A stretch of 64,000 nucleotides of DNA from NCBI GenBank assembly GCA_913031125.1, contig CAJWFK010000004.1, forward strand, positions 1-64,000. The letters are read 5' to 3'. A program made the position numbers and the translations under genes. Below are positions 8,483 to 38,987 of this stretch, one piece after another; position 1 is the stretch's first letter; every line of letters begins with the position of its first letter. The notes beneath the pieces are model-generated. The model had not been told where the DNA came from, did not search any database, and was given only the letters and a program-made list of their open reading frames with translations. Source of the DNA: an uncultured Woeseia sp. (GTDB lineage Bacteria > Pseudomonadota > Gammaproteobacteria > Steroidobacterales > Woeseiaceae).

Positions 8483-9826
8483 TTATCGAATTACGATGAT
8501 GTCCTCGTTGACTGGCGATAGGTACTCGACACCGTTATGTGTGACGATCGCATTGTCCTCGAAGTTAATGCTGGCACGCTTGTTCCACTCCGGTATCCAT
8601 GTATTGATTTCAAATTCGAAAGCGAAAATATGCGTAGGCTGAATTTTCAGGTGTGCACGATCCGAGCGCCAGGGTGCGATTTGCGCGCCGGCCGCCGCAT
8701 CGCCGACACTCATATTTCCGGTTGTATGTAGATCAACAGAGAAACCCGACTTATCAGAATCTCCAAGCTCGATCATCAGATCAGTGTATTGCGATGTTCT
8801 GTCATCAGATGGCGTAGATACAAATCCGGCTGCTTCCAATGTTTCTACGATCGCATCATGCGTTTCGCCGGCGGTGCGACCGACTTTGATAGTCTTTTTT
8901 AGTATTTCGCGAGCTTTTTTTCCTCGTTCCCAGGCGTGCTTGAGACCTTGAGGGATATCTTTCTCACCTTCTTTGAGGACGTAGCCGTAACGTTTGATAT
9001 CGGTGCCGAAGTTAAGGTAGCCGACACCCATATCCCACATAATGAAGGAACCACGTTCAAACACTCCGCCAGCGGTTTCTTCTGGCATATAGGTGAAAGG
9101 CATATAGGGAAGAAAAAGGGTAGCTGCTTGATAAGAGGGACCAATCCCTTGTGCAAGTAATTGGTCTGCAGCCCACCACCCAATATCCTCTGGCGTTGAA
9201 ATACCTGGTTTTATTCGTTTTAGGGCCGCTTCCATCACTTGCCGCTGTATTTCGAGCGCGTGAGATATTGCAGTAATCTCTCTTTGCACTCGTCGAACCC
9301 GAAAATCGGTAATCACGTTCTCTGCTGAAGTCAGCCTCTTCGTGTATTTGTTGCCAAGTGCATTGACCAGCCGTAAGTAGGAGGTATGGGATAGTCCATT
9401 CGCAATACCGAGGGATTTCGACATATTGATTGCAATGACTTTTGGATTTCTTTCTGTCACTAACGACAAAAGGTCATTGCCTGACCCCTCGACATCATAA
9501 AACCCATCTACATCCTCTCCGCCGAGGATAATGCGTTCAATCCGGTCCCCACCCCGGTCAGTAAAGATGTAGTAAGAGGCGGGCTCCCACGCTCTATATT
9601 CGGTCCAACCACCCAGATCTAGAGCCAACGGATCCATTCGCCCACTTTCGACAACGTGGATCCACATATCAACATCGTTATCCCGCATGGCACCAGGAAG
9701 AATGAGATCTAACTTCTCCTGGCGGATTAATTTCATAATCTCATAGTTTCGTTTGGATTCCTGAGCTGCTACAGCAGAGACTAACGAGATAGAGCAAAGT
9801 AGAACGGCTAACAAACTTTTTTTCAT
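8483..9826 (-). CDS. Secreted M24 (creatinase/prolidase-fold) peptidase, paralog 1, intact site
   Basis: 447 aa. A Sec signal peptide (MKKSLLAVLL start, cleavage after SAVAAQ) is followed by a creatinase-N domain and a pita-bread M24 domain (~residues 185-447). All five dinuclear-metal ligands of the family are present: Asp265, Asp276, His367, Glu404 and Glu423. M24 enzymes of this type cleave Xaa-Pro or related imide-like bonds; creatinase-like hydrolysis is an alternative. The signature LPGAMRDNDVDMWIHV near residues 43-58 is shared by the M24 proteins of this window. It is the second gene of a two-gene minus-strand operon, 13 bp after paralog 2. Confidence 0.88.
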   Translation of the reverse strand: MKKSLLAVLLCSISLVSAVAAQESKRNYEIMKLIRQEKLDLILPGAMRDNDVDMWIHVVESGRMDPLALDLGGWTEYRAWEPASYYIFTDRGGDRIERIILGGEDVDGFYDVEGSGNDLLSLVTERNPKVIAINMSKSLGIANGLSHTSYLRLVNALGNKYTKRLTSAENVITDFRVRRVQREITAISHALEIQRQVMEAALKRIKPGISTPEDIGWWAADQLLAQGIGPSYQAATLFLPYMPFTYMPEETAGGVFERGSFIMWDMGVGYLNFGTDIKRYGYVLKEGEKDIPQGLKHAWERGKKAREILKKTIKVGRTAGETHDAIVETLEAAGFVSTPSDDRTSQYTDLMIELGDSDKSGFSVDLHTTGNMSVGDAAAGAQIAPWRSDRAHLKIQPTHIFAFEFEINTWIPEWNKRASINFEDNAIVTHNGVEYLSPVNEDIIVIR

Positions 9827-9839
9827 GGGACTAGAATCC

Positions 9840-11129: not shown

Positions 11130-11183
11130 TGTTTTTCTCTTTTATAAAATAAAAATGAGTTGGTATTCTATATAATTAATATC

Positions 11184-11197: not shown

Positions 11198-11235
11198 TCC
11201 AAGATCGACGGAGCCAAACCTAAATACCTATCAAT

Positions 11236-12834
11236 ATGTCTAAAGTAACACACAGCTATGAAGCCTTACTTGAACTTTTCTTTGAATTTCGAGAACTCTT
11301 GAAACCTACGATTGTTGATGGTGTGCCGGACTTCAGTTCTGACGCCATGGCAGCGCAATATGCAGAGCTCCAGTACCTGAAAAAGCGACTCCGGGCAATT
11401 GACACCAGCGACTGGTCCCGAGCAGATTGCGTTGACTACCATGTGGTTCGTGCTGAAATAAACGGGGTCGATTTTGATCATCGAGTTCTTAAACCATGGG
11501 CGAGGGACCCCGGATTTTATAATCTTACCGATGGTATTTACCCTCGCTTGCTGGTGCATCACTCCCGGAGCTTATCTAACTGGGGGCTGATTGAGCCGGC
11601 TCTTCCTCTGGACAAGGAGGGAGTGAAAGATTTTCGGACAAGGCTCCAGTGTGTCCCGAAACTATTTTTAGATGCCAAGAAAAACTTAGTCGAGGCCGCT
11701 GGAGAACTGGCTACGATTGCCATCAGGGTCAAGGAAAAAGATATTGAGCTGCTGGAGCGTTTTAGACAGGGTTTTGCTGAGCACCATCCGGATCTCATTC
11801 CAGACGTTGACAAAGCACTCTTCGCTACAAAGGATTTTCGCGACTGGTTGATTGAAAACCAAAATCGTATGCCGGCCACGGCAGGTATTGGAAAGGAAAA
11901 CTATAACTGGTGGATGAAGAACGTCCATCTTATTCCCTATACCTGGGACCAGTTCCACACAATGATACAGGCTGAATATGATCGCACCATCTCTTTTCTG
12001 AAGCTTGAGGAAAATAAGAATCGGCGCCTTCCGGATTTTGAACTAACATCCAGTGCAGAGGAAAACAACCTTCGGCAACAGGAAGCCGTAGAAAAATTAA
12101 TGCAGTTTCTTCAGGAAGAAGAGATTATCACGGTGCCTCCTGAGCTCGCACCACTGCCAACTGACCAGTACCCGCGCGTATGGGGCATAAGTGCTTACTT
12201 ACGGGCGGGAGATCGGGGCTTTTTCGAGGAAACTAACGATCGCGAGCCGATGACCAATATCGCTCATGTATTTTTTGGGCACTATTACGTAGGTGGAAGA
12301 AAGATTTGGTATCAGGATAGCGATCAGCGTCCCATTAGGGGGGCGATTCGTCTTTATGATCTCCATGAAGCGCGGTCAGAGGCTTTGGCCTATGGTATAG
12401 AAGAATGGCTCCTGCAATCGGGCTTGTTTGATGATCGTCCAAGATCAAGAGAAATTACTTATATATGGTCAATTTTCCGAGCAGTTCGTGCATTAACTGA
12501 TTTAAAGATGCATGCTAATGAATACAGTCTCGAAGATGGTTTGAAGAATATTTCGGAAAGTATTCCATATCAATGGGCCAAGCCGAATAGTGACGCGGTA
12601 TGGTGGGATACGGAGGAGGCACTGCGCTCTCCTGGCCACAGCTCAAACTATGTTGTTGGACGAAACATGATGCAAGGGCTAATGGCTCAACGCGCGAGAC
12701 AGTTAGGAGAGGATTTTAGTGTGCGTAGGTTTTTTGATGAGTTTATGAATGGCGGAATAATTCCCATCTCGCTGACACGATGGGAATTGACTGGGTTAGA
12801 AGATGAAATGAATAGCTTGCTCGACGTGAACTGA
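11236..12834 (+). CDS. DUF885-type peptidase family protein, paralog 1, degenerate motif, no signal
   Basis: 532 aa, homologous along its length to the proteins at 33627 and 41386. These proteins resemble the DUF885 group of putative zinc peptidases: a helical protein with an HExxGH motif followed by a downstream Glu-rich helix. Here the motif reads His344-Val-Phe-Phe-Gly-His349, so the catalytic Glu is missing, while the later SEALAYGIEEWLLQSG helix is kept. Unlike its two paralogs it has no signal peptide from this start. No strong ribosome site lies just before the ATG. It heads a plus-strand run of transporter and enzyme genes (12849-19161) and starts 38 bp after operator site A. Confidence 0.75.
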   Translation: MSKVTHSYEALLELFFEFRELLKPTIVDGVPDFSSDAMAAQYAELQYLKKRLRAIDTSDWSRADCVDYHVVRAEINGVDFDHRVLKPWARDPGFYNLTDGIYPRLLVHHSRSLSNWGLIEPALPLDKEGVKDFRTRLQCVPKLFLDAKKNLVEAAGELATIAIRVKEKDIELLERFRQGFAEHHPDLIPDVDKALFATKDFRDWLIENQNRMPATAGIGKENYNWWMKNVHLIPYTWDQFHTMIQAEYDRTISFLKLEENKNRRLPDFELTSSAEENNLRQQEAVEKLMQFLQEEEIITVPPELAPLPTDQYPRVWGISAYLRAGDRGFFEETNDREPMTNIAHVFFGHYYVGGRKIWYQDSDQRPIRGAIRLYDLHEARSEALAYGIEEWLLQSGLFDDRPRSREITYIWSIFRAVRALTDLKMHANEYSLEDGLKNISESIPYQWAKPNSDAVWWDTEEALRSPGHSSNYVVGRNMMQGLMAQRARQLGEDFSVRRFFDEFMNGGIIPISLTRWELTGLEDEMNSLLDVN

Positions 12835-12848
12835 GGTATCTGAGCTTC

Positions 12849-14537
12849 GTGTCGATCGATCTCGCTGTTGTTATTGTCTACCTGATAGCGATCACTGTGC
12901 TTGGTATTTCTATGGCCAGGAGAGTGACCTCTTCAGCCTCGTTTTTTATAAGCGATCGTAGCTTTGGCAAAGCGATGATGACATTCTTTGCCTTCGGCAC
13001 CGGAACCAATACGGATCAGGCGGTCAGTGTCGCATCAAAAACATATAGCGTCGGGGCGTCCGGGATCTGGTACCAGTGGCTTTGGCTGCCTGCAACGCCT
13101 TTCTATTGGTTGCTGGTGCCACTCTTCAGACGAATGCGGGCAGTGACGACAGCGGACTACTTATCCGTCCGATATGGCTCCAGTGTTGCAGTTCTCTTTG
13201 GAATAGTAGGCATTGTCCAGACGTCAGTGACTATCGGCGTTGTGTTGAAAGCAACGAGTGTGATGATCACACCTGTCTCAGGCGGTGCTATTGGATCTGA
13301 CACGGCAATTATAGGGATGACATTATTATTCGTTGCCTACGGTGTGGCGGGTGGTTTGACTGCGGCAATTGTGACGGATGCGATTCAAGGTGTTTTGACA
13401 GTTGTACTATCGTTTTTGATATTGCCATTTGCGCTCAATCTCGTCGGAGGTATGGATGGCTTGCGTGCGAGCATCTCTGATCCAACCGTGTTTGATATCG
13501 TGGCCCCAGGCGAAATCACCCTTCTCTACATTGTAGTAATCGCTATCAATGCGCTTGTGGGCTGGGTCGCTGCTCCGTATTCCATGGCTATGGTCGGCGC
13601 GGGAAAAAGTGAGTCAGTTGCCCGAGTTGGATTTGTTAGTGGAATGCTACTCAAAAGGGTTTGTACCATTGCGTGGGTCCTTACAGGAATGTGTGCAATA
13701 GCACTCTATGCTGGAACTACAGTGGCTCCTGATCACGTCTATGGGTTAATGGCACGGGACTTGCTCCCAACAATCGCCCCGGGACTATTGGGCCTGTTTG
13801 TCGCATGTATGCTAAGTGCTGTGATGAGTTCCTGTGATGCGCTGATGCTTTCAGCGTCTGCTTTGTTCACCGAGAACATCTATAAACCTTTATTTCAGCC
13901 CAATCGGGATGAAAAACATTACATTCTGGTTGGTCGGGTTGCATCTATAACTGCTGTTGTTGGTGGAATTTTTGTAGCATTCGGTTTATCCAGTGTTGTG
14001 CAGGGACTGGAGCTTTTCTGGCAAGTGCAGGCGATGATGGGGATAGCTATTTGGGTTAGTTTTTTCTGGAGGCGCGCCACTGCTGCCGGTGCCTGGGCAT
14101 CGACAATTGGCGGCTTTGCGGCATTCGCCTTTGTCAATGAAATCAGTTTTATAGGTTGGGACTTCAACTCGGTTTTCGGTAGCCACCTTCCAGCTTTTAT
14201 GCTGTATGAGGGAAATATTTCCCTTCCATGGCAGATGATATTTTATTTGACGGTAAGCCTCGTACTCATGGTTAGTGTCAGTGTTTTGACGCGACCAAGG
14301 GATGAAAAAATACTGGATCGTGTCTATGCATGCCTTCGAACTCCGGTAATGCCCGGGGAACCTGAAGTGACACCAGTAACCCTTCCCGAGACTGTAATAC
14401 CAGCACCTAGGTCCGTTTTAATCAAACATCCGGACTTTGAGGTAATGAAACCTAGTCGTGAATCTATCGTTGGCTTCATTGTTACATGGTTGCTAGTTAT
14501 TGCATTGATTGGTGTTTTCGTATGGATTATCCACTGA
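12849..14537 (+). CDS. Sodium:solute symporter (SSS family)
   Basis: 562 aa integral membrane protein with about 13 predicted helices and SSS-family segments (FAFGTGTNTDQAVSVASKTY near residues 45-65, then RRMRAVTTADYLSVRYG). It has a long polar stretch near residues 480-525 and a last helix at the C-terminus (IVTWLLVIALIGVFVWII). It would import a small organic solute with Na+; relatives carry proline, sugars, vitamins or carboxylates. Its position between a peptidase-family gene and TRAP genes suggests an amino acid, imino acid or short peptide derivative, but specificity is not readable. GTG start, 14 bp after the previous stop. Confidence 0.9.
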   Translation: MSIDLAVVIVYLIAITVLGISMARRVTSSASFFISDRSFGKAMMTFFAFGTGTNTDQAVSVASKTYSVGASGIWYQWLWLPATPFYWLLVPLFRRMRAVTTADYLSVRYGSSVAVLFGIVGIVQTSVTIGVVLKATSVMITPVSGGAIGSDTAIIGMTLLFVAYGVAGGLTAAIVTDAIQGVLTVVLSFLILPFALNLVGGMDGLRASISDPTVFDIVAPGEITLLYIVVIAINALVGWVAAPYSMAMVGAGKSESVARVGFVSGMLLKRVCTIAWVLTGMCAIALYAGTTVAPDHVYGLMARDLLPTIAPGLLGLFVACMLSAVMSSCDALMLSASALFTENIYKPLFQPNRDEKHYILVGRVASITAVVGGIFVAFGLSSVVQGLELFWQVQAMMGIAIWVSFFWRRATAAGAWASTIGGFAAFAFVNEISFIGWDFNSVFGSHLPAFMLYEGNISLPWQMIFYLTVSLVLMVSVSVLTRPRDEKILDRVYACLRTPVMPGEPEVTPVTLPETVIPAPRSVLIKHPDFEVMKPSRESIVGFIVTWLLVIALIGVFVWIIH

Positions 14538-14613: not shown

Positions 14614-15636
14614 TTGGCTAAAACAAAATTTCAATCGTCTCTTCGACACTTTTTTCAGTGGTTACTGCTGGTGTTTTCCGTTGTCGTAGGTGGCTGTATG
14701 GATACAGATATAAGCACCGATACAACAGTCATAAAAGCGGCGCACAATGGTAATGAGCAGCATCCGTTTCAGGTTGGTTATGAGATTTTTCGTGATGCTC
14801 TCGAGCGGGAAACCGAAGGCCGGTATTCACTCGACATTTTCCCGAATAGTCAGCTTGGTAGTGAGGAGGAAGCGACGGAAATGGTGAAACTTGGTGTGAT
14901 TAGCTCGACCGCCGCCAGCGCAGCAAGTCTCGCCTCTTTTGTTCCTGAAATAGACGTCTTAAATTTCCCTTTTATTTTTCGTGATTTGAAGCATTTCTAT
15001 GCGGTCCTGGATGGTCCGGTCGGAAAACGTATTAGTGTTCAGATAGAAAAAGACCTTGATATTCTGGTTCTAGGCTGGTGGTTCGCTGGTGTCCGGAATG
15101 TCTGGAATGAGCAAAGACCGATTTATGTTCCGGATGATTTACAAGGTCTTAAAATTCGCGTAATCGGCAGCTCAATCGTCCTGGATGCTTTTGATACCCT
15201 CGGCGCACAAGCTACCACCATGTCATTTGGTGAATTGTACTCGGCGATGCAGCAGGGCGTTCTTGATGGTGCTGAGTCGGATCACACTGATTTGCTTGTT
15301 GAAAAATTTTATGAGGTAACCAAATTTGTTTCCCTGACCCAACATCTTTATCTTGCGGTGCCGCTGGCATACAGTAAGAAGAAATTTGACAGATTACCGC
15401 ATCATGTCCAGCTGGCTTTGAGGGTTGCGGCAGCTGAATCTGTACATGCACAACGTACCGCAATGGAGTCCAGCAACCAACAATCCCTGTTCGCGCTTCA
15501 GGAACTGGGGCTGCAATTCAATGAGGTCGATGGCGAAAAGTTTCGTCAGCAGATAGCGATCGGACGGGTCTATGAGAACAATTCGGCGCGAGTTGGTGGT
15601 GGAGCTATGATCGAAGAAGTAATTAATCAACAGTAA
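14614..15636 (+). CDS. TRAP transporter substrate-binding lipoprotein (DctP)
   Basis: 340 aa extracytoplasmic binding protein. An N-terminal signal ends in a lipobox-like VVGGC, so it may be membrane-tethered rather than free. DctP-family features: FPNSQLGSEEEATEMVKLG, FPFIFRDLKHFYAVLDGPVG, and the carboxylate-binding Arg region LKIRVIGS near residue 185. It starts with TTG. It is followed 15 bp later by the DctQ and then the DctM gene, making a complete TRAP system. Ligands of this family are mostly carboxylates, including amino and hydroxy acids. Confidence 0.93.
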   Translation: MAKTKFQSSLRHFFQWLLLVFSVVVGGCMDTDISTDTTVIKAAHNGNEQHPFQVGYEIFRDALERETEGRYSLDIFPNSQLGSEEEATEMVKLGVISSTAASAASLASFVPEIDVLNFPFIFRDLKHFYAVLDGPVGKRISVQIEKDLDILVLGWWFAGVRNVWNEQRPIYVPDDLQGLKIRVIGSSIVLDAFDTLGAQATTMSFGELYSAMQQGVLDGAESDHTDLLVEKFYEVTKFVSLTQHLYLAVPLAYSKKKFDRLPHHVQLALRVAAAESVHAQRTAMESSNQQSLFALQELGLQFNEVDGEKFRQQIAIGRVYENNSARVGGGAMIEEVINQQ

Positions 15637-15651
15637 TGGTTATGGCGAATT

Positions 15652-16170
15652 ATGGATCCTGAAGTTAGCGAAAATACTAAGTCGCCGGCCGGCAAATTGA
15701 GCATTTTGGAATGGGCGCTATGCTTATTACTGACTGCTATTGTAATGGTGACTTTTGTCCAAGTAGTTTCGAGGTATGTCCTTCAATCATCGCTGGCATG
15801 GACTGAAGAATTAGCGCGGTATATGTTCATCTGGCTTGCTGCACTTGGAGCAGCATATGCTTATAAGATAAAAGCCCATTTCCTCCTGCGTTTCGTCGTT
15901 GAAAGATTGTCCAATAAAAATCAAAGACTTATTGCGAATCTAGTTATCGGTTTAACGTCAGCATTTCTTGTTGTTTTTACATGGCAGGCTGTGCTGTATG
16001 TGGAGAGTGTTGCCGGGCAGACAGCGCCTGGTACAGGTCTCTCGAAGGCAGTGCCGGCATTGGCTGCTGTTGTCGGAGGAGTATTGATGTTGTTCTATTC
16101 GATACGCAACTGGTACCGAGAAATTGATAATTTACGCGATTCTGCCGATACTGACAGTGAGTCTAAATAG
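15652..16170 (+). CDS. TRAP transporter small permease (DctQ)
   Basis: 172 aa with four predicted transmembrane helices (residues ~18-42, 55-75, 95-118 and 132-152) and the DctQ pattern SRYVLQSSLAWTEELARYMFIW. It partners with the DctM protein, whose ATG follows this stop codon with no gap. Confidence 0.93.
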   Translation: MDPEVSENTKSPAGKLSILEWALCLLLTAIVMVTFVQVVSRYVLQSSLAWTEELARYMFIWLAALGAAYAYKIKAHFLLRFVVERLSNKNQRLIANLVIGLTSAFLVVFTWQAVLYVESVAGQTAPGTGLSKAVPALAAVVGGVLMLFYSIRNWYREIDNLRDSADTDSESK

Positions 16171-17451
16171 ATGGGCCTCCTCCTCATTGTGACGCTTATC
16201 TTGACTATGCTCATGGGTGTGCCTGTCGGGATATGCCTTGGTATCACCACAGTGGTAGGCATGCTTTATATCTCGCCGGACTTACTGATAATGCTTCCGC
16301 AAAAGTTCATTTCAGGGCTTGATTCATTCCCGCTTTTGGCAATTCCACTATTCGTTCTCGCTGGTCAATTAATGGCTCAAGGCGGCCTTGCCAAACGAAT
16401 CGTTGAGTTGTCACTTATATTTGTGGGGCAGGTTCGCGGCGGACTAGGGATGGTTGTGATTTTTGCGACCATGCTGATGTCAGGAATATCTGGCTCGCCT
16501 GCCGCGAATACAGCTGCTATCGGTTCAATTGCTGTGCCTGAAATGAAAAAACAACAGTATCCCACAGAGTTTTCTACCGTCTTGCTGGCTGCTGCCGGAG
16601 GTGTATCCACATTGGTTCCACCTGCTATAGACCTAATTATCATTGGGGTCATAGCCAATATTTCGATTAGTGCATTATTCGCAGCCGGTATTTTGCCGGC
16701 AGTACTCTGTGGAATTGGCATAATGGCGTTAGCTCATCGTAAGGCTCAAAATCTCGAGTTGCCGCTTGCCGAGCCAATGACCGAGGATGAAAAGCGTCAG
16801 ACGCTTTTTGATGGACTGCTCCCCTTGCTGATGGTGGTTATCATTCTCGGTGGTATCTATGGAGGTGTATTCACGCCGACCGAAGCAGCAGCGGTTGCTG
16901 TTGTTTACGGTTTTTGTGTTTCATTCTTTATTTATAAAGAGCTTAAACTAACAGAGCTGCCCAATGTCTTGCTGAAAAGTTGTGCACTCACTGGTGTTGT
17001 ATTGCTAGTTTTGGCTTGTGCTGCGATGTTTTCGTTTCTTTTGACATTCGAAGGTATTCCGCTGGCAATGGCGGATATGATTACGACATACGCGTTTAAC
17101 TGGATTGTGTTCATCCTTTTCGTTCATGTCTTGTTCTTTGTACTGGGTATGGTCATGGACTGCTTGCCGCCCATTTTGATTTTGATGCCTATCTTGGTGC
17201 CTGTCGCCAGTGCGATGGGAATAGATCCGGTACATTTCGGCATTATTGTTGCGGCTAACGTAGGATTAGGGATGGTATCTCCACCAGTTGGTATTTGTTT
17301 GTTTGTTTCCTGCGGTTTGAGTGGTACGCCTATCGAGCGTGTAGTAAAGCCGCTATTACCTTTCCTGTTAGTGCTTACGATTTCTCTAATGGTCATTACA
17401 TTTGTGCCTCAAGTAAGTCTCTTTTTGCCCAAATTGTTAGGGTTATCATGA
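16171..17451 (+). CDS. TRAP transporter large permease (DctM)
   Basis: 426 aa, about twelve membrane segments, the Na+-coupled translocation subunit. Typical family blocks: LIMLPQKFISGLDSFPLLAIPLF, ATMLMSGISGSPAANTAAIG, and a C-terminal half with MDCLPPILILMPILVPVA. It is immediately downstream of DctQ and its stop overlaps the next start (ATGA at 17448-17451), so transport and the following enzyme are translationally coupled. Confidence 0.95.
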   Translation: MGLLLIVTLILTMLMGVPVGICLGITTVVGMLYISPDLLIMLPQKFISGLDSFPLLAIPLFVLAGQLMAQGGLAKRIVELSLIFVGQVRGGLGMVVIFATMLMSGISGSPAANTAAIGSIAVPEMKKQQYPTEFSTVLLAAAGGVSTLVPPAIDLIIIGVIANISISALFAAGILPAVLCGIGIMALAHRKAQNLELPLAEPMTEDEKRQTLFDGLLPLLMVVIILGGIYGGVFTPTEAAAVAVVYGFCVSFFIYKELKLTELPNVLLKSCALTGVVLLVLACAAMFSFLLTFEGIPLAMADMITTYAFNWIVFILFVHVLFFVLGMVMDCLPPILILMPILVPVASAMGIDPVHFGIIVAANVGLGMVSPPVGICLFVSCGLSGTPIERVVKPLLPFLLVLTISLMVITFVPQVSLFLPKLLGLS

Positions 17452-18404
17452 TTTTCATTGGCGAAGAAGATGTTCGACATGTACTCGGTTACAAGGAGTT
17501 GGTTGAGGAGCTGCGGCACATGTATTGCGCCGATAATATGTATGCAGGTCGTGAGTTATTAGATTTACAGTCGCTGGGTAGTGCCAGTGGAACCTGCATG
17601 GGGCTAATGCCAGCTTATGGTCCGGGGCATGACATCACGACTAAAATTTTTACACTCTTCCCGAGCAATCAGGCAAAGGGATTACCGACTATTACAGCGG
17701 TAATCATCGTATTTGATTCGGAGACTGGGGAGCTGACAGCTGTTGTCGATGGTATTGAAGTAACAAAACGCAGAACGTCTGCTATGTGCGCTTTGGCATC
17801 GACTTACATGTCCAGGGAAGACAGCAAGTCATTGCTTGTCTGTGGTTCCGGTGCACTTGCGCCACATGCGGCTTTGGCCCACGCAGTTGTCCGGCCGATA
17901 AAGAAAATTGAGATCTGGGCGCGAAGGCCAGATGCAGCTGCTGAGACTGCAAATATTGTCCGCGCTGACCGCCCGGATATTGATATCAGCGTATCTCGAG
18001 ACCTGAAAGACTCTTGTTCGCGGGCAGATATTGTATCCTGCCAGACTAGCGCATCTTATCCAATTATATTTGGAGACTGGATCAGTCCGGGAACACATCT
18101 TGATTTTGTTGGTAGCCATGATCCACAGAAACGCGAATGCGATGATGAGGTTGTTCGTAAGGGACGAATTATTGTTGATGTGATGGAAACGTCGATGCGG
18201 GAAGCAGGAGATATTTTGATCCCGATTGCCAATGGGACAATTAAAAAATCAGATGTGCTTGGGGACCTTAGCGATTTGTGCAGATCCCGGGTTCTTGGAC
18301 GGCAAACTACTGATGATATTACGGTTTTTAAATCAACCGGATCGTCATTGGCGGATATGGCAGCAGCAGAACTGGCCGTTCGAAATTCAGTAAAAAGAAA
18401 ATAG
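17448..18404 (+). CDS. Ornithine cyclodeaminase/mu-crystallin family, likely pyrroline-2-carboxylate reductase
   Basis: 318 aa from the ATG that overlaps the dctM stop; a longer in-frame reading back to 17295 merely runs through dctM. The N-terminal dimerisation part (~1-110) carries KIFTLFPSN with the substrate-binding Lys and KRRTSAMCALASTY; the Rossmann part has LLVCGSGALAPHAALAH and DFVGSHDPQKRECDDEVV. Members of this family include ornithine cyclodeaminase, ketimine reductases and the NAD(P)H-dependent delta1-pyrroline-2-carboxylate reductase that makes L-proline from trans-3-hydroxyproline or D-proline breakdown. The last fits a window with a proline-racemase relative and peptidases of the prolidase fold. 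Confidence 0.85.
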   Translation: MIFIGEEDVRHVLGYKELVEELRHMYCADNMYAGRELLDLQSLGSASGTCMGLMPAYGPGHDITTKIFTLFPSNQAKGLPTITAVIIVFDSETGELTAVVDGIEVTKRRTSAMCALASTYMSREDSKSLLVCGSGALAPHAALAHAVVRPIKKIEIWARRPDAAAETANIVRADRPDIDISVSRDLKDSCSRADIVSCQTSASYPIIFGDWISPGTHLDFVGSHDPQKRECDDEVVRKGRIIVDVMETSMREAGDILIPIANGTIKKSDVLGDLSDLCRSRVLGRQTTDDITVFKSTGSSLADMAAAELAVRNSVKRK

Positions 18405-26627: not shown

Positions 26628-26722
26628 CGTGTTTCCCCGTATAGCAGAAAAAAGTAAACAGCTGTTAAAACATACTAATTGCGCCAATTTTCGTATCTTA
26701 TTGGCTGCTGCATAATGGAGAA

Positions 26723-26886: not shown

Positions 26887-27915
26887 ATGGCAGGTTTTTC
26901 CGCACGCACCGTCAAAACTATCGATTCCCATACTGAGGGCAATCCAACCCGCGTTATCGTAGATGGTGTGCCGGTCCCTCCAGGTACGACGCTTTTGGAG
27001 CAAAGGGAGTGGCTGAAGAAAGAGAGTGACGGTTTGCGTCGGATGATCAATTTTGAACCGCGTGGCTCGGGCCTCATGTGTTCGGTGTTAATTTTACCTC
27101 CTCATTCGGAGAGCGCAGATTTTTCGGCCATTATTATGGAGCAAGATGAGTACGTGCCAATGTGTGGCCACTGCATTATTGGTACCGCAACCACAGTAGT
27201 TTCTGAAGGAATGGTTGAAGTGGCTGAACCGATTACCACAGTGAGGTTCGATACGCCTGCTGGGTTGGTTGTTTGTGATGTTGAAGTGACAAACGGCAAC
27301 GTTGGAGCAGTTAGCTTCGAAAATGTGGACAGCTTTTTGCTACATGAAAAGGTAGCTATAGATGTACCAACGTTTGGCGAGATTATTGTTGATATAGCGT
27401 ATGGCGGTGACATGTACGCTTTCGTTGATGCGGATGCACTCGGACTTGAGCTGAGCCTAAATAATGATGCTCAGTTGATTGATGCCTGGCTCAAAATTCG
27501 GGCCGCAGTTGGTGAGCAGATAGAAACGATTCATCCTGAAGATAACGATATTAATCGTTGCTACCAAGTGTTGTTTACCTCTGAGAGAAAAACAACGGGG
27601 GACTATAAACAGACCATTCTTGTTCCGCCTGGGACCCTTGATAGATCTCCGTGTGGAACCGGAGCCAGTGCCCGCGTGGCCCTTTTGTATAGTAGGGGTG
27701 AAATTGCTTTGAATGAGCCCAAGCGTTTTGAGGGACCCCTTGGAACGTTTTTTATTGGCCAGGCGGTAGCCGCTGAAGAACGAAATGGCATCAAATATAT
27801 TCAGCCGAGAATAACAGGGCGAGCGTATATCACTGGATATCACCAGTTCGTACTGCATCCTGAAGATCCCATTCCAGAAGGCTACAGGGTAGGACCTGCA
27901 CCCCAAAAATTATAG
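26887..27915 (+). CDS. Proline racemase family protein (proline racemase / 4-hydroxyproline 2-epimerase type)
   Basis: 342 aa cytoplasmic enzyme. Both catalytic cysteines are present: Cys93 in PMCGHC and Cys256 in DRSPCGTGASAR with Asp252. This argues for a two-base racemase/epimerase and against the trans-3-hydroxyproline dehydratases, which lack one Cys. The N-terminal IDSHTEGNPTRVIVDG block is that of the hydroxyproline epimerase branch. A Cys follows MCGH where Gly or Ser is more common. AGGAG at 26874-26878 sets the start. First gene of an operon with an M28 peptidase, an amidohydrolase, a lipoprotein and a GntR regulator. Confidence 0.88.
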   Translation: MAGFSARTVKTIDSHTEGNPTRVIVDGVPVPPGTTLLEQREWLKKESDGLRRMINFEPRGSGLMCSVLILPPHSESADFSAIIMEQDEYVPMCGHCIIGTATTVVSEGMVEVAEPITTVRFDTPAGLVVCDVEVTNGNVGAVSFENVDSFLLHEKVAIDVPTFGEIIVDIAYGGDMYAFVDADALGLELSLNNDAQLIDAWLKIRAAVGEQIETIHPEDNDINRCYQVLFTSERKTTGDYKQTILVPPGTLDRSPCGTGASARVALLYSRGEIALNEPKRFEGPLGTFFIGQAVAAEERNGIKYIQPRITGRAYITGYHQFVLHPEDPIPEGYRVGPAPQKL

Positions 27916-27933: not shown

Positions 27934-29508
27934 ATGTTTATGAAGGGTATCTCATCTAAAGCACTAGTTTTTTCTTTGTTATGTTGTCCGGCAGGTTGGA
28001 TTTTGGCGGCGGAATCACCGAACAATATCTACGATAAGATTAAAAATGAGCTCACCTCAGGATCGATGATTGCAGAAAACCTGCACCAATTATCAAATGT
28101 ATATGGCCCCAGGCTTACCGGCACTCCTCGCTACGTTGAGATGGTCCAGTGGACGGAGTCAACTATACGTAAGTGGGGTGTGGATGACGTCCGTATTGAA
28201 GAATATGGTGTCAATGACAGGGGCTGGGAAGTTGAGTCTTTTTACGCCGCGATCACGTCACCAATATTCTCAGGGCTTGGAGCCCAACCTGTTTGTTGCG
28301 GCGCCAGCATTGATGGTGAGGTGTCTGGTATTCCTCTGGTGGTTGATTTCTATGATCTTGCAGCACTGCAGAAATTCGAAGGCCGGCTTAGCGGTAAAAT
28401 TCTACTTCACCCCTCAGTAACTAAAGTTGCTGATGCAATCACTGGGAAATGGTCGAAGGAGCGTTTGAGGGCAGCAGCAGAACGCACAGATGCTGTTACA
28501 CCTGATGGTCTGGATGGGCCCGGCTCGACGACTACATTTGTTGAGACCCTTAGAGAACGCCAGAATAGAGGCGTTGATCATGACCGTGCTTTGGCCGAGT
28601 ACTTGATTGAACAAGGCGTCGCTGCAGTTTTACGGTCTAGCTCTGCCCCAGCCGGCTTAGTTAACAATCGATTTGACTCTGGTTTGATTGAATTTCACAG
28701 TGTCGGTGATCCTGAGCCTGTGCCACTTTTTGTACTAGCACGGGAGGGACACGAGCGATTATTGGCAATGCTGCAAGATGGAGCTAAACCACATGTTTCG
28801 TTGCGACTTGAAACAGTGTTTTATGAAGCACCGGGGTTTCATGTCAATTTGATTGCGGATATTAAGGGGTCCGATCCGGATCTTAAAGATGAAGTGGTGA
28901 TGCTGGGCGCGCATCTGGATTCGGTAGAAATGGCTACAGGTGCTGCGGATAACGGGATAGGTGCTGCAACTTCTATGGAAGTATTGAGACTTATCAAAGC
29001 CTTAAAGCTTAAACCTCGAAGAACTATTCGCGTTGCTCTGTGGGGTGGCGAAGAACAGGGCCTGAAGGGATCGCTTGCATATATGCGGCGACACATCGGA
29101 GACATTATCAATGGTGAGTATTTCACTGAGCATACGCGGATATCCGCGTATTTTAATCATGACAATAACGGTCATGATATTCGTGGAATTTTCACCGTTG
29201 GGCATGAGGAGATAAAACAGCTGTTTCGACCAATATTTGCAAAGTTTGCCGATGTTGGTGCTGATACCGTAACAATAGAAAATGCTGGAGGTACCGATAT
29301 TTTAGTATTTGATGCGAGTGGTATCCCTAGTTTTGAATGGATTCACGATCCAGGGGATTATTTCACACATCAACTGCATACGAGCCTCGATATCCCATCT
29401 ATGGTGAATGTTCAATCGGCAAACCGGAACGCAGCGATAATTGCGACTACTATTTACGAGACGGCAATGATGGATGAAATGTTGCCACGAAAAAAGGTTG
29501 GTAAATGA
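27934..29508 (+). CDS. Secreted M28 family metallopeptidase with PA insert
   Basis: 524 aa; signal peptide (MFMKGISSKALVF start, cleavage near ILAAES). The zinc aminopeptidase domain shows His327 in GAHLDS, bridging Asp339 in GAADNG, catalytic Glu373 and Glu374 in WGGEEQG, Asp in FNHDNNG, and the last His in FTHQLHTSLD. Residues ~110-290 fit an inserted PA domain. It would release N-terminal residues from peptides in the periplasm. It is 18 bp after the proline-racemase-family gene and 19 bp before the amidohydrolase ATG, consistent with stepwise peptide breakdown. Confidence 0.92.
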   Translation: MFMKGISSKALVFSLLCCPAGWILAAESPNNIYDKIKNELTSGSMIAENLHQLSNVYGPRLTGTPRYVEMVQWTESTIRKWGVDDVRIEEYGVNDRGWEVESFYAAITSPIFSGLGAQPVCCGASIDGEVSGIPLVVDFYDLAALQKFEGRLSGKILLHPSVTKVADAITGKWSKERLRAAAERTDAVTPDGLDGPGSTTTFVETLRERQNRGVDHDRALAEYLIEQGVAAVLRSSSAPAGLVNNRFDSGLIEFHSVGDPEPVPLFVLAREGHERLLAMLQDGAKPHVSLRLETVFYEAPGFHVNLIADIKGSDPDLKDEVVMLGAHLDSVEMATGAADNGIGAATSMEVLRLIKALKLKPRRTIRVALWGGEEQGLKGSLAYMRRHIGDIINGEYFTEHTRISAYFNHDNNGHDIRGIFTVGHEEIKQLFRPIFAKFADVGADTVTIENAGGTDILVFDASGIPSFEWIHDPGDYFTHQLHTSLDIPSMVNVQSANRNAAIIATTIYETAMMDEMLPRKKVGK

Positions 29509-29527
29509 TCTATAAGGAAGGTTGGTA

Positions 29528-30883
29528 ATGGTGGAGTTGAGGCGATGGTTCATTGCGTGTGTCTTTTGTTTTTTGGCGGCGGGGTGTGTAGCTGATGAGG
29601 TGACTCCCAGCGACCTCACATTAGTGCTTACCAATGCAGCTTTAATCGACGGCAACGGAGGTGATGTCAGATTTAACTCGACTATTGAGATAGCTGATAC
29701 CCGCATTTCCCGTGTTTATAGCGGAGGCTATGATGGTGCTAAAGACAGTAGTGCTAGAGTTATTGATCTAAATGGTTCTTACGTAATGCCGGGCTTATGG
29801 AACAATCATTCGCATCTCGCCGATCTGCTTCCAGATCCTAAAAACACTTTAAATAAAGAGGGGCCTTATGACGCGACTATTCGCGCTGGCAGGAACGCCA
29901 TGGATGCGTTGCGCGCAGGTTTTACATCTCTTCGGGTTGTCGGGGAGACCGATTACATAGATGTTGCCTGGCGTGATGCGTTTGAGGCTGGTGTTTTCGT
30001 CGGTCCGAGGATATATGCATCAGGGCCGCCAATTACATCGGTCGGCGGGCATGGAACTGAACCCGGTATGAACGGTGTTGCGGTGCAACAAGCAGCTAGC
30101 GTTGAAGAGATAATAAATGCGGTAAATGAGCATGCCGACCGTGGCGTAGATTTGGTCAAAATAATGGTCGATGGATTAACTCTACCGCAGTTGGGTGCCG
30201 CGATAGAGACAGCTCATGAACGTGACATAAAGATTGTAGGGCACGCGGAGGAACCGGGTGCCGGAAGAGCCGTTGCACTTGGCATTGATGGTATCGAACA
30301 TGGTTATGGATTGACTGATGCAACCATAGATAAAATGGTCGAGAACGGCACATTTTATGATCCAACTATTGTGTGTAATCTGAGTGCCGCCTATATCGCA
30401 GAACGTGAAACGTTTGTAACACGGGCGGGCTATATAGCGGATAAGGCGACTCGAGATGGCCGTATCATGGTGGCTTATGCTGATGAACGGCACCCTGAAC
30501 AGGCCGAAATTCAAAGAGAAATAATTAAGAAAGCATTGGCGGCTGGTGTCAAAGTAATCAGTGGCAGTGACTCTAATCCGATTAATGAGATTGGGATCTT
30601 GGAAATTGAACAGTTAGTTATATCAGGCGCAACGGAAATGGAAGCATTGTTGGCGACTACACGAAACTCTGCGGAGATGATGGGTGTATTAGACAAAGTT
30701 GGTACGATCGAACCGGGAAAGATAGCAGATGTGATTGTATTAAATAAAAACCCACTTGATAACATCTCTAATTTGCGTTCTATTGCCCAGGTTTATAGAA
30801 ATGGCTCGCCGGTTGTACTGAAAACAAATAAAGGTCGTCGTAGCTTCTGGGACCTCTACTTTCTTGAGGGAGAACACAAATGA
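29528..30883 (+). CDS. Exported amidohydrolase-superfamily protein (imidazolonepropionase-like)
   Basis: 451 aa, lipoprotein signal (lipobox LAAGC). It has the binuclear-metal amidohydrolase pattern: HSH after strand 1 (NNHSHLAD), the carbamylated-Lys candidate in VDLVKIMVDG, His in KIVGHAEEPG, His in GIEHGYG, and the catalytic Asp in VISGSDSNP. A C-terminal beta-sandwich closes with GKIADVIVLNKNP. Some members of this group hydrolyse Xaa-Pro or Xaa-Arg/Lys dipeptides, which would suit this locus; cyclic imides are an alternative. I chose ATG 29528, which follows AAGGAAGG, over a TTG at 29522. Confidence 0.87.
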   Translation: MVELRRWFIACVFCFLAAGCVADEVTPSDLTLVLTNAALIDGNGGDVRFNSTIEIADTRISRVYSGGYDGAKDSSARVIDLNGSYVMPGLWNNHSHLADLLPDPKNTLNKEGPYDATIRAGRNAMDALRAGFTSLRVVGETDYIDVAWRDAFEAGVFVGPRIYASGPPITSVGGHGTEPGMNGVAVQQAASVEEIINAVNEHADRGVDLVKIMVDGLTLPQLGAAIETAHERDIKIVGHAEEPGAGRAVALGIDGIEHGYGLTDATIDKMVENGTFYDPTIVCNLSAAYIAERETFVTRAGYIADKATRDGRIMVAYADERHPEQAEIQREIIKKALAAGVKVISGSDSNPINEIGILEIEQLVISGATEMEALLATTRNSAEMMGVLDKVGTIEPGKIADVIVLNKNPLDNISNLRSIAQVYRNGSPVVLKTNKGRRSFWDLYFLEGEHK

Positions 30884-31821: not shown

Positions 31822-31900
31822 ACAGAACTGGACTTAAATTGTGCGGGCAGTTTTCGCATTATATAATCCTGAGTCTTACAGATTGAGGCACAGAACCCCA

Positions 31901-32578
31901 ATGGCCACAGCAGTTAAGCAAATACAGGCGTCGAGAAAGACGATTACCTCGTCTGTTGTTGAGATACTCCGGGAAAAAATAATATCGCATGAGATCGTCG
32001 GTGGTCAGCCGCTTCGGCAGGACGCACTGGCGGACGAGTTGAATGTCAGTCGCATTCCCATCAGGGAAGCCTTATTGCAGCTTGAAGCAGAGGGGTTGGT
32101 GCGGTTTGCACCACATAAGGGAGCAGTCGCGACAAAAATCTCGGCATCAGAAGTAGATGAGTTGTTTGGCTTGCGGGTGCTACTTGAGTGCAATGTCCTG
32201 AAAACATCACTGAGCAAGATTAGTGATGAGGAACTCGATAAGGCTGAAAATATTCTGGCTGAGTTTGATGAGTTGCTTGAACCGGATGCTGATCTGCATG
32301 CATGGGGTGCCATTAACTGGAAATTCCACAAAAGCCTGTACTCACCTTCGGAACAAAAGCGGACGTTAGGCATCCTCGGGCAGCTACATACCAACACAGA
32401 TCGGTATCTGCGACTTCAGATTCAATTAAGTGCTGACTACTCGCGGGCTGAGCAAGAGCACCATGATTTGCTTGCGCTATGCCGTGAGCGCGACACCCGG
32501 ACCGCCGTTAAGTGTCTAAAAAGTCATATCCTGACGACGAAGAAAGAGCTCATTCGGGTGATCAAGTCCCTGCAGTAG
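31901..32578 (+). CDS. GntR-family regulator, FCD type
   Basis: 225 aa from ATG 31901; an in-frame GTG at 31841 would add 20 residues and cannot be excluded. The winged helix (residues ~15-85) contains RQDALADELNVSRIPIREALLQLEAEGLV. The all-helical FCD ligand domain (~90-220) has His residues in NWKFHKSLY, EQEHHDLL and KSHIL, the usual metal-binding set. FCD regulators sense carboxylic acids or amino-acid derivatives and bind short palindromes with a GTATAC-type centre, as found at 11184, 21787 and 26723. Last gene of the proline-racemase operon. Confidence 0.92.
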   Translation: MATAVKQIQASRKTITSSVVEILREKIISHEIVGGQPLRQDALADELNVSRIPIREALLQLEAEGLVRFAPHKGAVATKISASEVDELFGLRVLLECNVLKTSLSKISDEELDKAENILAEFDELLEPDADLHAWGAINWKFHKSLYSPSEQKRTLGILGQLHTNTDRYLRLQIQLSADYSRAEQEHHDLLALCRERDTRTAVKCLKSHILTTKKELIRVIKSLQ

Positions 32579-32610
32579 ACTCTTTTGGCGTTTGTGTGAG
32601 TTATTAAACC

Positions 32611-33617: not shown

Positions 33618-33626
33618 GTTTGGACG

Positions 33627-35357: not shown

Positions 35358-36254
35358 ATGAATGTAGTTCGCCGCATTCTTATGTGTTTCCTTTTGGCAG
35401 TAATCATGGGTTGTGCAGCTACGGAGACTCAATCAGTATCGGACCTCCACATACCAGATTTGATATTTGTTCGCTATGATAGTGACGGAAGCGATATTTA
35501 TGGTCTTCGTGTGGCTGACATGGCAGTGACCCAAATGACTGATACAAAGGCAGCCGAAGAGTTTCCGGTATGGTCGAAGGATGGATCCCAGTTTGCTTAT
35601 CTGTCTATGCTAGGAGATCAGTTCGAGATCAAAGCACGGACTGCACTATCTGATGAAGATATCGTGCTGCTGGTTGGAGCCGCGGAGCCTGTTTCGTGGT
35701 CTGGTGATTCGAAATTTATCGTCGTGACCAAGAAACTAGGTGAATCACGTGGACTGGTTATGGTTAGCACGCGTACTGGTGACGAGACAATTATTCCAAC
35801 TGGAGCAAGTGGAGATGCTTATGCAACATGGTCGCCGAAAAGTGATGCCATTGCATTTGAGTCCACGCGCGATGGCAATCCAGAGATTTATACTGCGGAC
35901 ATTGATGGCCGGAGCGTTGCCAGATTGACTGATAATAACGTTCTTGACGAGTGGCCGCAGTGGTCGAATAGTGGGGAACACATAGCTTATGCTTCCGGAG
36001 TAGAGGGTGATAAAGACCTTTGGATTATGCGTTCGGATGGCACTGAGAAAAGGCAGCTTACGAGTAATCTCTTATTTGGTGATTCGTATCCTAGCTGGTC
36101 TCCCGATGATTCAAAAGTGGTTATTACTGTAATAGCTGGAGATAAGGATACAAATTTGATGGTGGTTGATGTTGAGAGCGGAGTGACTGAATTATTAATA
36201 GAGGGAGCTGCTGCTAGTTGGAGGCCAAGACGCGCAGAGGAGTTTTTGCAATGA
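35358..36254 (+). CDS. TolB-like beta-propeller lipoprotein
   Basis: 298 aa. ATG 35358 gives a lipoprotein signal (lipobox IMGC); an in-frame ATG at 35253 would add 35 residues with no signal character. Repeats like those of the protein at 32718 follow: PVWSKDGSQFAYLS, ATWSPKSDAIAFES, PQWSNSGEHIAYAS and PSWSPDDSKVVI with DLWIMRSDGTEKRQLT. A second propeller in the same gene run suggests that each works with an adjacent peptidase. The stop overlaps the next start (ATGA at 36251). Confidence 0.83.
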   Translation: MNVVRRILMCFLLAVIMGCAATETQSVSDLHIPDLIFVRYDSDGSDIYGLRVADMAVTQMTDTKAAEEFPVWSKDGSQFAYLSMLGDQFEIKARTALSDEDIVLLVGAAEPVSWSGDSKFIVVTKKLGESRGLVMVSTRTGDETIIPTGASGDAYATWSPKSDAIAFESTRDGNPEIYTADIDGRSVARLTDNNVLDEWPQWSNSGEHIAYASGVEGDKDLWIMRSDGTEKRQLTSNLLFGDSYPSWSPDDSKVVITVIAGDKDTNLMVVDVESGVTELLIEGAAASWRPRRAEEFLQ

Positions 36255-37579
36255 ATTGTTTCTTTAAGATAATTAGTGTTGTGTCTTTTTCGTTGGTTTT
36301 ACAAAATGTTGTTGCTTTGGAAGGTGAGCCCGAATGGGCGATGTCATGCAAAATCCGATCTGACAAATTCGATTACGTTTTGCCGGAAGCGATGCGGGCA
36401 AACAATATTGATATGTGGATTGTTATCGACAAAGGTCGTGGAACTGAGCCGCTAGCCCGAGATTTTGGGTCAATATCCAGCAATGGTAATGGAATCATTG
36501 TTTTTTTTGATCGCGGTGAAGATCGAATTGAGCGCGCGATACTTGGACCTGGTGAAGACGAAATAAAGGATTGTGGGGTTTACGATATTGTCGGCGATCC
36601 AGCGGACTTCGCTGAATTTGTGCAAAGTAGAAATCCCCAAAGAATAGGCCTCAATTTTACCACTGACACAGAGCTTTATCCGATGGAGGGCAGACACTTA
36701 TCGGATGGTTTGTCTCACACGGATTTTAAGAATATCCAGAGAGTCTTAGGAGAGCCTTATGCATCCAGGCTCGTTTCCGCTGAAAAACTGATTGCTCATT
36801 ACCGGGGCCGCCGCGTTGCGACGGAATTGATCGAATTTTCTAAAATAGCTGAAGGCACGAGATTATTACTCGACAGAGCTCTGTCTAATGAAGTGATTAC
36901 ACCAGGTGTTACCACTTTAGGTGACATAAGCTGGTGGCTTGAAAAGCAGCGAATTCAAAACGGTTTCGAACCAGGTTGGGATGCTACGGTATATGTCCAC
37001 CTTCCGGATGGTAATGAGGTCGGCAATACCTATCGCACGATACACAGGGGAGATATTGTTCAAATTGACTATGGGGTTGGCAGGAATAATTTCTTTACTG
37101 ATATAAAGAGATTCGCATATGTCATGCGGGAGGAAGAGGAGTATCTCCCACAGTGGGTCGAGACAGCGTTCGATAATGCGATGATTGTTAGGAAACTAAT
37201 TCGACAGAATGTGCAGTCTGGCGGAAGAGGCCGCGAGAAACTCAACGCTTTAAAGCAGCTCGTGGCGGATTCAGGATTTGTTTATACAGAAGATGAGAGG
37301 GCTAGTGATGTGCCTGGCATTGAAGTTAACATCGGAATGCACGCTGCTGGGAATCTTGGTCACGATGCCGGAGCGGGTATATTCCAGATTTATCCTATTC
37401 GTACTGATTATGATGTGCAGCCATATAGCATAATCTCCCTGGAGTTCATCGTATTCACACCTACTGATGAATGGGGTGGTAACAAGGTGCCCGTAAATAT
37501 CGAAGAGAATGTTTTAGTTACTCCACACGGTATAGAGTGGCTTCATGTTCCACAAGATCGGCCACGTGTTATTCGCTGA
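36251..37579 (+). CDS. Secreted M24 (creatinase/prolidase-fold) peptidase, paralog 5, intact site
   Basis: 442 aa from ATG 36251, preceded by AGAGGAG and overlapping the propeller gene stop. Signal peptide ends near NVVALEG. Signature LPEAMRANNIDMWIVI. All five metal ligands are in place: Asp in QIDYGVG, Asp in FFTDIKR, His in GMHAAGN, Glu in SLEFIVF and Glu in VNIEENVLV. The 3' end overlaps the next M24 gene's longest reading by 35 bp, so the two are a tandem pair. Confidence 0.88.
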   Translation: MNCFFKIISVVSFSLVLQNVVALEGEPEWAMSCKIRSDKFDYVLPEAMRANNIDMWIVIDKGRGTEPLARDFGSISSNGNGIIVFFDRGEDRIERAILGPGEDEIKDCGVYDIVGDPADFAEFVQSRNPQRIGLNFTTDTELYPMEGRHLSDGLSHTDFKNIQRVLGEPYASRLVSAEKLIAHYRGRRVATELIEFSKIAEGTRLLLDRALSNEVITPGVTTLGDISWWLEKQRIQNGFEPGWDATVYVHLPDGNEVGNTYRTIHRGDIVQIDYGVGRNNFFTDIKRFAYVMREEEEYLPQWVETAFDNAMIVRKLIRQNVQSGGRGREKLNALKQLVADSGFVYTEDERASDVPGIEVNIGMHAAGNLGHDAGAGIFQIYPIRTDYDVQPYSIISLEFIVFTPTDEWGGNKVPVNIEENVLVTPHGIEWLHVPQDRPRVIR

Positions 37580-38987
37580 CGGGGTATTTGAGATCAACAG
37601 GATACTGCGAACACTAAGATTAATGCTGATTGGCAGCGGACTGCTGGTGTTCCCGACTGCTGGAGTAACGGACGATTCCGCGACATCTCAGGGTGAATAT
37701 TTGCGAAACATCTTGCCCATGCGCCAGCGCGTTCAGGTCATGGAGGATTGGTGGAAGCGCAAGAAACAAATCGTGTTGCCGCAGCTTATGCGAGAACAGT
37801 CGGTGGACATGTGGATAGTGCGTAATGACGAGGCTGACAAGTACTACAACAACGAAGGTCCGGTCTACACGTCGCTTCTACCAGCAAATCACGAAGGAAT
37901 GACGACTCCGAGTCAGTACGCATCCCCCGGAAGTCAGCAGGTTCCCCGTTTTATGTTATTTCACGACAACGGTGGCAATATCGATTACATAGAACCGCGT
38001 AGTTATGAGCACATTGGCGAACTGGTCGACGATCTCGAGCCGTCGAAAATAGCGATCGGCAAACATAATAACGCGGCCATGCTCGACGCGCTTGGCGAAC
38101 GATTCAGCGCGCGAATGATCGATAGCTGGACGCTCGGCGTCCGCTGGCTTGAAGCGATGTTGCCGGAGCAGGTGACGGCATATCGCGATGTACAGGGAAT
38201 AGCGAACGATTTAATTGCTGAAGGATTTTCCAACAGGGCGATCATGCCTGGTGTCACGACCACCGACGATCTCAACTGGTGGTTTAGGCAGCGCATGCTG
38301 GATCTCGATATTGAGTATGAGAATCACCCGAGTATTCGAGTGCAACGACGTCCAGCGTATATTAAGAAGTATCCGGATGACGCCGCAGCATTTGTGAACG
38401 GAAGGATTGGCAACGGCAGCAATGTTACGATCCAGCGCGGCGATATCGTCAGCATAGACTCGGATATTTTCATGCTTGGCCTGGTGACGGATTCGCATCA
38501 GCACGCCTATATTCTGGACGAAGGTGAGCAGGACGTTCCGGACGAATTGCAGTCGGCGCTCGAAATTGTCAATGCAATGCAGGACCGGTTCGCCAAGGAA
38601 TTTGTCATTGGCAGAACGGGCCGGGAAATAGCAGCAATCTCGGAGAAAATAGAAATTCCCGAGCGCGTTATTGAAACCGATACAGCGTTCCATCCTCCAC
38701 CAATGTTCCTGCGACGATTTTTGCTGGGTGGGTACATGTTCTCGCACAAAACCTACGTCGCCGGGATGACCTCGGGCCCCGGTTACTATCCGACCTCTAT
38801 TGTTTCAAACGAGCACAAACTCTATGCGAATACGCTGTACGCGTTCGAACCGCACACTTGGGTGGCGGTTAGCGGCTGGGGAAAAAGTGGCGTCGAGCTC
38901 GGCATGGGTCAGATCGTTGTGGTCGATGATGCCGGCCTGCATTATCTGGGCCGTTCTCAGCAGTCAGATTGGCATGTTGTGCGATGA
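37545..38987 (+). CDS. M24-fold protein, paralog 6, divergent and GC-richer
   Basis: Up to 480 aa. The start is uncertain: ATG 37545 overlaps the previous gene, GTG 37566 or ATG 37623 are alternatives, and each is followed by a hydrophobic segment (MLIGSGLLVFP). Signature LPQLMREQSVDMWIV. Both Asp (SIDSDIF, LVTDSHQ), His (FSHKTY) and one Glu (YAFEPH) are kept, but the final Glu position is Gly453 (ELGMGQIVV). It is the most divergent of the six, lacking the DLHxxGN block. Codon use is clearly more GC-rich than its neighbours from about 37700 to 38990, suggesting a separate origin. Confidence 0.8.
   Translation: MFHKIGHVLFADGVFEINRILRTLRLMLIGSGLLVFPTAGVTDDSATSQGEYLRNILPMRQRVQVMEDWWKRKKQIVLPQLMREQSVDMWIVRNDEADKYYNNEGPVYTSLLPANHEGMTTPSQYASPGSQQVPRFMLFHDNGGNIDYIEPRSYEHIGELVDDLEPSKIAIGKHNNAAMLDALGERFSARMIDSWTLGVRWLEAMLPEQVTAYRDVQGIANDLIAEGFSNRAIMPGVTTTDDLNWWFRQRMLDLDIEYENHPSIRVQRRPAYIKKYPDDAAAFVNGRIGNGSNVTIQRGDIVSIDSDIFMLGLVTDSHQHAYILDEGEQDVPDELQSALEIVNAMQDRFAKEFVIGRTGREIAAISEKIEIPERVIETDTAFHPPPMFLRRFLLGGYMFSHKTYVAGMTSGPGYYPTSIVSNEHKLYANTLYAFEPHTWVAVSGWGKSGVELGMGQIVVVDDAGLHYLGRSQQSDWHVVR

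Follow-up and report, generated by a model that had tools for sequence, protein, structure and literature searches.

Described M24 systems and the paralogs of the window

The Xaa-Pro dipeptidases and aminopeptidase P (M24B; structures 4r60, 2zsg, and 1pv9) have a two-domain creatinase-type fold with a pita-bread domain. In M24 enzymes the metal ligands, given here in the order D1 D2 H E1 E2, serve two sites, of which site A comprises one Asp, two Glu, and the His, and site B comprises two Asp and one Glu (PMC10377022). The present analysis concerns six M24 paralogs, P1 to P6, encoded within 64,000 nucleotides of contig CAJWFK010000004.1 from an uncultured Woeseia sp.; this whole stretch is referred to as the window. 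At the sequence level, and with a provisional assignment of the His, P1, P3, and P5 share the five-ligand set of the M24B enzymes, and P5 also shares their His at +7. Unlike those enzymes, the window proteins appear to be secreted, P1 and P3 lack the +7 His, and P2, P4, and P6 have altered ligand sets. The models of P2 and P4 have only 8 to 18% identity to the M24B structures.

Proteins with the M24 fold that lack the full metal site include EBP1/PA2G4 and the N-terminal domain of Spt16, but these have binding roles in the ribosome or chromatin, are not secreted, and have no active partner encoded by a neighboring gene. In C. elegans, the active APP-1 associates with PID-5, in which the aminopeptidase P-like domain is inactive (PMC7849312, PMC10377022). 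As may also be so in the window, this is an M24 domain with replaced ligands (the last Glu of PID-5 is Gly, and one metal is predicted to remain) that is linked to an active paralog; however, the PID-5 system is eukaryotic and intracellular, includes a Tudor domain, shows no His replacement, and is young, being limited to some Caenorhabditis. Creatinase and the ectoine hydrolase EutD/DoeA have the same fold and act on C-N bonds of small molecules but are distant in sequence, lack a signal peptide, and use other ligand sets. The mitochondrial processing peptidase (M16 alpha/beta) is the model case of active and inactive peptidase paralogs, but it belongs to another family and fold and is a proven heterodimer, whereas a heterodimer of the window pairs is hypothetical. 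Neither the M24 fold nor the concept of an M24 partner without activity is new (EBP1, Spt16, PID-5).

Ligand sets of the six paralogs

The genome behind the window comprises 2.98 Mb in 105 contigs, and its nearest relatives are Woeseiaceae metagenome-assembled genomes (MAGs). All six M24 open reading frames (ORFs) are present and open, and each begins with a plausible signal peptide (judged by eye), in line with the original prediction of six secreted M24 paralogs. P1 (8483..9826, minus strand; ligands D265, D276, H367, E404, and E423) and P2 (9840..11129, minus strand; L256, D267, H350, E384, and H405) are 13 bp apart. P3 (19181..20623, minus strand) and P4 (22835..24220, minus strand; S272, D288, H380, E417, and S437) are separated by 2.2 kb containing an aldo-keto reductase gene and a DHDPS-family gene, and at 46% identity they form the closest pair among the six. 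P5 (ORF 36218..37579, plus strand, likely ATG at 36251) and P6 (37545..38987, plus strand) overlap by 35 bp, the P6 start lying over the P5 end. The predicted adjacency of P1 to P2 and of P5 to P6, and the closeness of P3 and P4 in place and sequence, thus held.

Alignment on the five M24 ligand columns gave DDHEE for P1, P3, and P5, LDHEH for P2, SDHES for P4, and DDHEG for P6. The original prediction had correctly assigned all five ligands to P1, P3, and P5 and the loss of the last Glu to P2 (His405), P4 (Ser437), and P6 (Gly), but it had overlooked that P2 (Leu256) and P4 (Ser272) also lack the first metal Asp together with the stretch of ~20 to 30 residues preceding it. P2, P4, and P6 do not carry the D D H E E set of a dinuclear M24 enzyme and, judged by their sequences, are not classed as dinuclear M24 peptidases. 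The second-shell catalytic His, 7 residues past the ligand His, is present in P5 and in basal relatives and absent in P1, P2, P3, P4, and P6. Since P1 and P3 lack this residue, the label "intact" suits P5 best, which by its ligand and second-shell residues is the most canonical of the six. The curated cutoff of Pfam M24 (PF00557) was passed by P1, P3, P5, and P6, while P2 scored 13.6 bits, below the cutoff, and P4 gave no match; automatic annotation consequently overlooks P2 and P4 entirely.

Each altered class forms a single conserved clade

A scan of named genomes yielded 77 loci, and the addition of regions from the underlying genomes gave 130 distinct alignable rows. Trees were built without the ligand columns, one with a mixture model on 100 rows and a second on 130 rows. 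Each altered class was found as one clade on one side of one well-supported branch, namely, HEH, the class of P2 (55 rows; support, 100), DHES, the class of P4 (11 rows; support, 99), and the P6 type, DDHEG (3 rows; support, 100). Judged from these trees, each altered class has a single, old origin and is found in several phyla, with the phylum counts being approximate because many relatives are MAG contigs and closely similar copies under different phylum names (e.g., L029, L030, and L040) may be binning errors. The P6 type includes a Maribacter copy with 59% identity to P6; Maribacter antarcticus (DSM 21422) is a cultured strain.

Among the 55 HEH rows, Asp at D1 was found in none and the ligand His in all, while Glu was found at E1 in 53 and His at E2 in 54. 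D2 was His in 17 rows and Asp in 8 and was deleted or replaced by another residue in the remainder. The HEH sequences diverge to ~30% identity, yet the ligand pattern is retained. With 54 of 55 copies retaining the replacement His, "degenerate," the term originally used, is the wrong word for this class. Two orthologous copies within the HEH clade (locus L218, 4124-5356, and locus L221, 3522-4859) have lost the middle Glu and have His at D2, H, and E2, which would make an all-His site possible. The DHES class is nested beside P3-type copies, its parent group, and has Ser in place of E2 within the motif N-[FIL]-SNP. Because the altered patterns are common to 55, 11, and 3 relatives, class by class, they are not attributed to chance.

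We found no description of the HEH (His-for-Glu M24) or DHES classes, or of such bacterial sets, among the open-access papers searched, and the HEH metal site appears to be undescribed. The original statement that no described system of this form was known has to be qualified by PID-5/APP-1, a partial precedent and the only one found here for an enzyme/pseudoenzyme M24 pair.

Omega values, computed only where synonymous sites were unsaturated, were 0.05 to 0.32 for altered copies and 0.07 to 0.16 for five-ligand copies. For the window orthologues of P1 to P5 the synonymous sites were saturated, and the ratio of nonsynonymous to synonymous differences (pN/pS) was 0.19 for P2 and 0.22 for P4, compared with 0.15 to 0.26 for P1, P3, and P5. 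These sequence comparisons indicate that all classes are under purifying selection, the altered copies about as strongly as the five-ligand copies, and the decay in relatives that would have spoken against the original prediction was not seen. A separate observation concerns P6, for which synonymous divergence (dS) from its orthologue L125 (genome G002) was only 0.24 while the adjacent P5 was saturated; P6 therefore seems to have moved between lineages recently and by itself.

Conservation of the fold and of the N-domain

The AlphaFold2 models of P2 and P4 had pLDDT values of 91 and 89, respectively. Both domains were covered in matches to the Xaa-Pro dipeptidase 4r60 (for P2, Z of 26.5 and root mean square deviation [rmsd] of 4.5 over 348 aligned residues; for P4, Z of 23.6 and rmsd of 4.9 over 351), and further matches over both domains were creatinase, EutD/DoeA, Spt16, and DddP. 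According to these models, P2 and P4 retain the whole creatinase-type fold (pita-bread domain and N-domain), which by homology is also expected of the other four paralogs.

Between classes (HEH, DHES, and five-ligand), the N-domain exceeded the catalytic C-domain in conservation by a factor of 1.3 to 1.55; HEH copies, for example, were 47% identical to P1/P3-like copies over the N-domain and 30% identical over the C-domain. In comparisons inside the HEH class or inside the DHES class, conservation of the two domains was nearly equal. The shared N-domain points to a common role in assembly or substrate entry. Gene conversion was considered as the source of the similar N-domains and rejected, as colocated HEH/five-ligand pairs had 49% identity and pairs from different loci had 47%.

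A proposed one-metal site

In the basal groups there are two His residues seven residues apart, the first of which is invariant, and this spacing is that of the ligand and second-shell His in M24 enzymes. From the spacing and the invariance we infer that the conserved His is the metal ligand; profile-profile alignment to PepP-type proteins did not decide the assignment. Given the known ligand roles, the HEH and DHES classes would both be without the Asp dedicated to site B and would retain most of site A.

The reading that we lean toward is a specialized secreted M24 branch in which some members have been rebuilt around one metal instead of two and work with five-ligand copies. The division into classes of one origin each is observed, as are their conservation, fold, and gene linkage, and the metal content, the substrate, and the partnership are what we infer from the data above and below. 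In this view, the window of this Woeseiaceae-like gammaproteobacterium contains an island for peptide use, where a divergent secreted M24 branch would have diversified into functionally distinct classes. P1, P3, and P5, which retain the ligands of both sites, would likely be hydrolases, probably acting on proline- or hydroxyproline-containing peptides, as their neighbors suggest. In the P2 class, loss of the site-B-only Asp and replacement of the bridging Glu by His would leave His-Glu-His around site A, to which about half of the copies would add an Asp or His at D2; the P4 class would retain Asp-His-Glu around site A; and in the P6 class the bridging Glu would be the sole loss. P2 and P4, which have the fold and the N-domain in common with the five-ligand copies, are most likely one-metal proteins and may work with these copies on shared substrates, whether in the role of partner subunits or, with changed chemistry, in that of enzymes or binders.

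A bolder proposal, which we make tentatively and hold to be somewhat short of an even chance, is that HEH represents a type of metal site new to the pita-bread fold. A mononuclear His-Glu-His site with chemistry of its own would have arisen from the dinuclear site of M24, the bridging Asp often being exchanged for a fourth His, and would have spread, accompanied by a five-ligand partner, among sediment Pseudomonadota, Aminicenantes, Bacteroidota, and Marinimicrobia. Whether nature can rebuild a dinuclear hydrolase site into a one-metal site can be tested cleanly on the HEH class. More generally, a peptidase-family member that has lost metal ligands is not necessarily a dead enzyme, as three separate branches altered the same site and were then long retained across phyla.

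Several observations weigh against the one-metal reading. E1 is absent in 2 of the 55 HEH copies, and the replacement His is absent in 1. By HMMER profile alignment, the conserved His of the family can also be matched to a non-ligand His of prolidases, located 4 residues ahead of their usual ligand. The support from the 19 genomes with HEH or DHES copies, of which all but one (G071, a 1.5-Mb MAG), or 18, also have a five-ligand copy, is not decisive because the genomes were selected for holding an altered copy, the five-ligand form is frequent anyway, and no equal-size control set was scored. Finally, guanidine-degradation genes stand behind the M24 set of Maribacter, so that some hosts may use the set on a substrate other than proline peptides.

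Linkage to five-ligand copies and rival explanations

HEH copies adjoin P1-type copies in Aminicenantes, in Woeseia, and in the window, and they adjoin P5-type copies in two other gammaproteobacterial MAGs, with varying gene order. DHES and P3-type copies occur in the same locus in L026, L029, L030, and L036. In three Woeseiaceae genomes, the P6 and P5 genes are direct neighbors. As expected of a pseudoenzyme partner of the PID-5/APP-1 type, an altered paralog is thus maintained beside a five-ligand one, and such adjacent genes provide a direct test case for bacterial enzyme/pseudoenzyme M24 pairs. The 1,444-residue frame in L026 was considered as a natural active/altered fusion, a reading that was rejected because the frame is an ordinary copy after a long open leader.

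The original prediction had raised obligate heteromers of an enzyme with a pseudoenzyme as a possibility. In the form considered here, each altered copy would be a pseudoenzyme subunit pairing with the adjacent five-ligand subunit through the shared N-domain in a head-to-tail dimer. The adjacency in several phyla, the P5/P6 overlap, the 13-bp P1-P2 spacing, and the conservation of the N-domain across classes are consistent with this proposal, as are the head-to-tail dimers that M24 prolidases form via both domains (PMC4213023) and the PID-5/APP-1 association (PMC7849312). However, in the arrays of L054, L058, G060, and G061, HEH copies outnumber five-ligand copies by 3 to 4 to 1, and the type of the partner changes from P1 in some loci to P5 in others, so that a fixed 1:1 pair is disfavored. 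Furthermore, genome G071, though small, has HEH without a five-ligand copy, an HEH-only array is found on contig C17 of the window's own genome, and a plain scaffold would need no conserved replacement His. While maintenance and adjacency in different phyla and gene orders stand, we regard obligate heteromers as unlikely.

Outside the window, the same genome has at least six further members of this M24 branch, of which four are HEH-type copies in the C17 array, one is on C9, and one is on C1. Close to the C17 array (L023, C17:36000-55000; 7814-13666) are genes for an SSF symporter and an S9 peptidase; five-ligand copies are absent within 19 kb.

For the substrate, the neighbors suggest use of proline peptides by the M24 set, as they include a gene of the proline racemase/hydroxyproline epimerase family (26887..27915, plus strand) with both catalytic Cys residues (MCGH and SPCGTG), a delta-1-pyrroline-2-carboxylate/piperideine-2-carboxylate reductase gene (17367..18404, plus strand; over the NF004793 cutoff), an amidohydrolase gene (29522..30883, plus strand) whose nearest relatives are Xaa-Pro dipeptidases of the amidohydrolase superfamily, and, elsewhere, S15 peptidase genes adjoining HEH copies in L044, L102, and L122.

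Alternatively, the whole branch, five-ligand copies included, might act on small C-N compounds in the manner of creatinase or ectoine hydrolase rather than on peptides. The fold neighbors creatinase and EutD/DoeA would fit this, as would the lack of the second-shell His in P1 and P3 and the presence in the island of the reductase, an Asp/Glu racemase gene, and a TRAP transporter (DctP-DctQ-DctM; 14614..17451, plus strand). Genes for ectoine use have similar transporter and racemase neighbors. In Maribacter antarcticus (L048, 750-19715), the set of M24, DUF885, and aldo-keto reductase genes is followed by a DUF1989 pair, a urea/guanidine carboxylase gene, and an allophanate hydrolase gene, recalling a named guanidine-degradation pathway (PMC11410670); no Rfam match was found in this locus. 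Guanidine degradation as a general theme was rejected, since it was seen in Maribacter only and no urea/guanidine carboxylase domain was found in the window's own genome. Speaking against a small-molecule role, peptidase genes of several families are located in these loci or close to them, and the window proteins look secreted, whereas creatinase and DoeA are not. We therefore consider action on small C-N compounds quite unlikely.

Less probable still is a role of the altered copies as substrate binders or chaperones that contain no metal and use the His as a binding residue. Spt16 and creatinase, which share the fold among the matches of the P2 and P4 models, work without metal, and P2 and P4 have lost site B and the segment before D1. 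The ligand His, E1, and the new His, however, are each present in at least 53 of the 55 HEH copies while D1 and D2 drift or vanish, which is the pattern expected of a metal site. That the altered copies are recent duplicates heading for loss, as ligand loss as such and the sub-threshold Pfam scores of P2 and P4 might suggest, was rejected as highly improbable given their single old origins, cross-phylum orthologues, and purifying selection similar to that of the five-ligand copies.

Other genes of the island

The peptide-use island spans ~8.3 to 44.7 kb and is followed by DUF1841, an endonuclease-III-like gene, and a methionyl-tRNA synthetase gene. It encodes three DUF885 proteins (11236..12834, 33627-35243, and 41386-43101), an SSF-family sodium/solute symporter (12849..14537), an M28 peptidase (27934..29508), and a GntR/FCD regulator (31841..32578), all on the plus strand, and a TonB-dependent receptor (24288..26687) on the minus strand. 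The aldo-keto reductase between P3 and P4 (20655..21689, minus strand) is among the best-conserved island proteins (90% in Woeseiaceae) and travels with the M24 set, being conserved with it in Acidobacteria and Maribacter (71% in both). Four island genes (30880-31821, 39001-39870, 39980-41188, and 43861-44697) have no Pfam family over the cutoff; relatives of 39001-39870 and 39980-41188 accompany the M24 set in Aminicenantes, and those of 39980-41188 do so in Maribacter as well.

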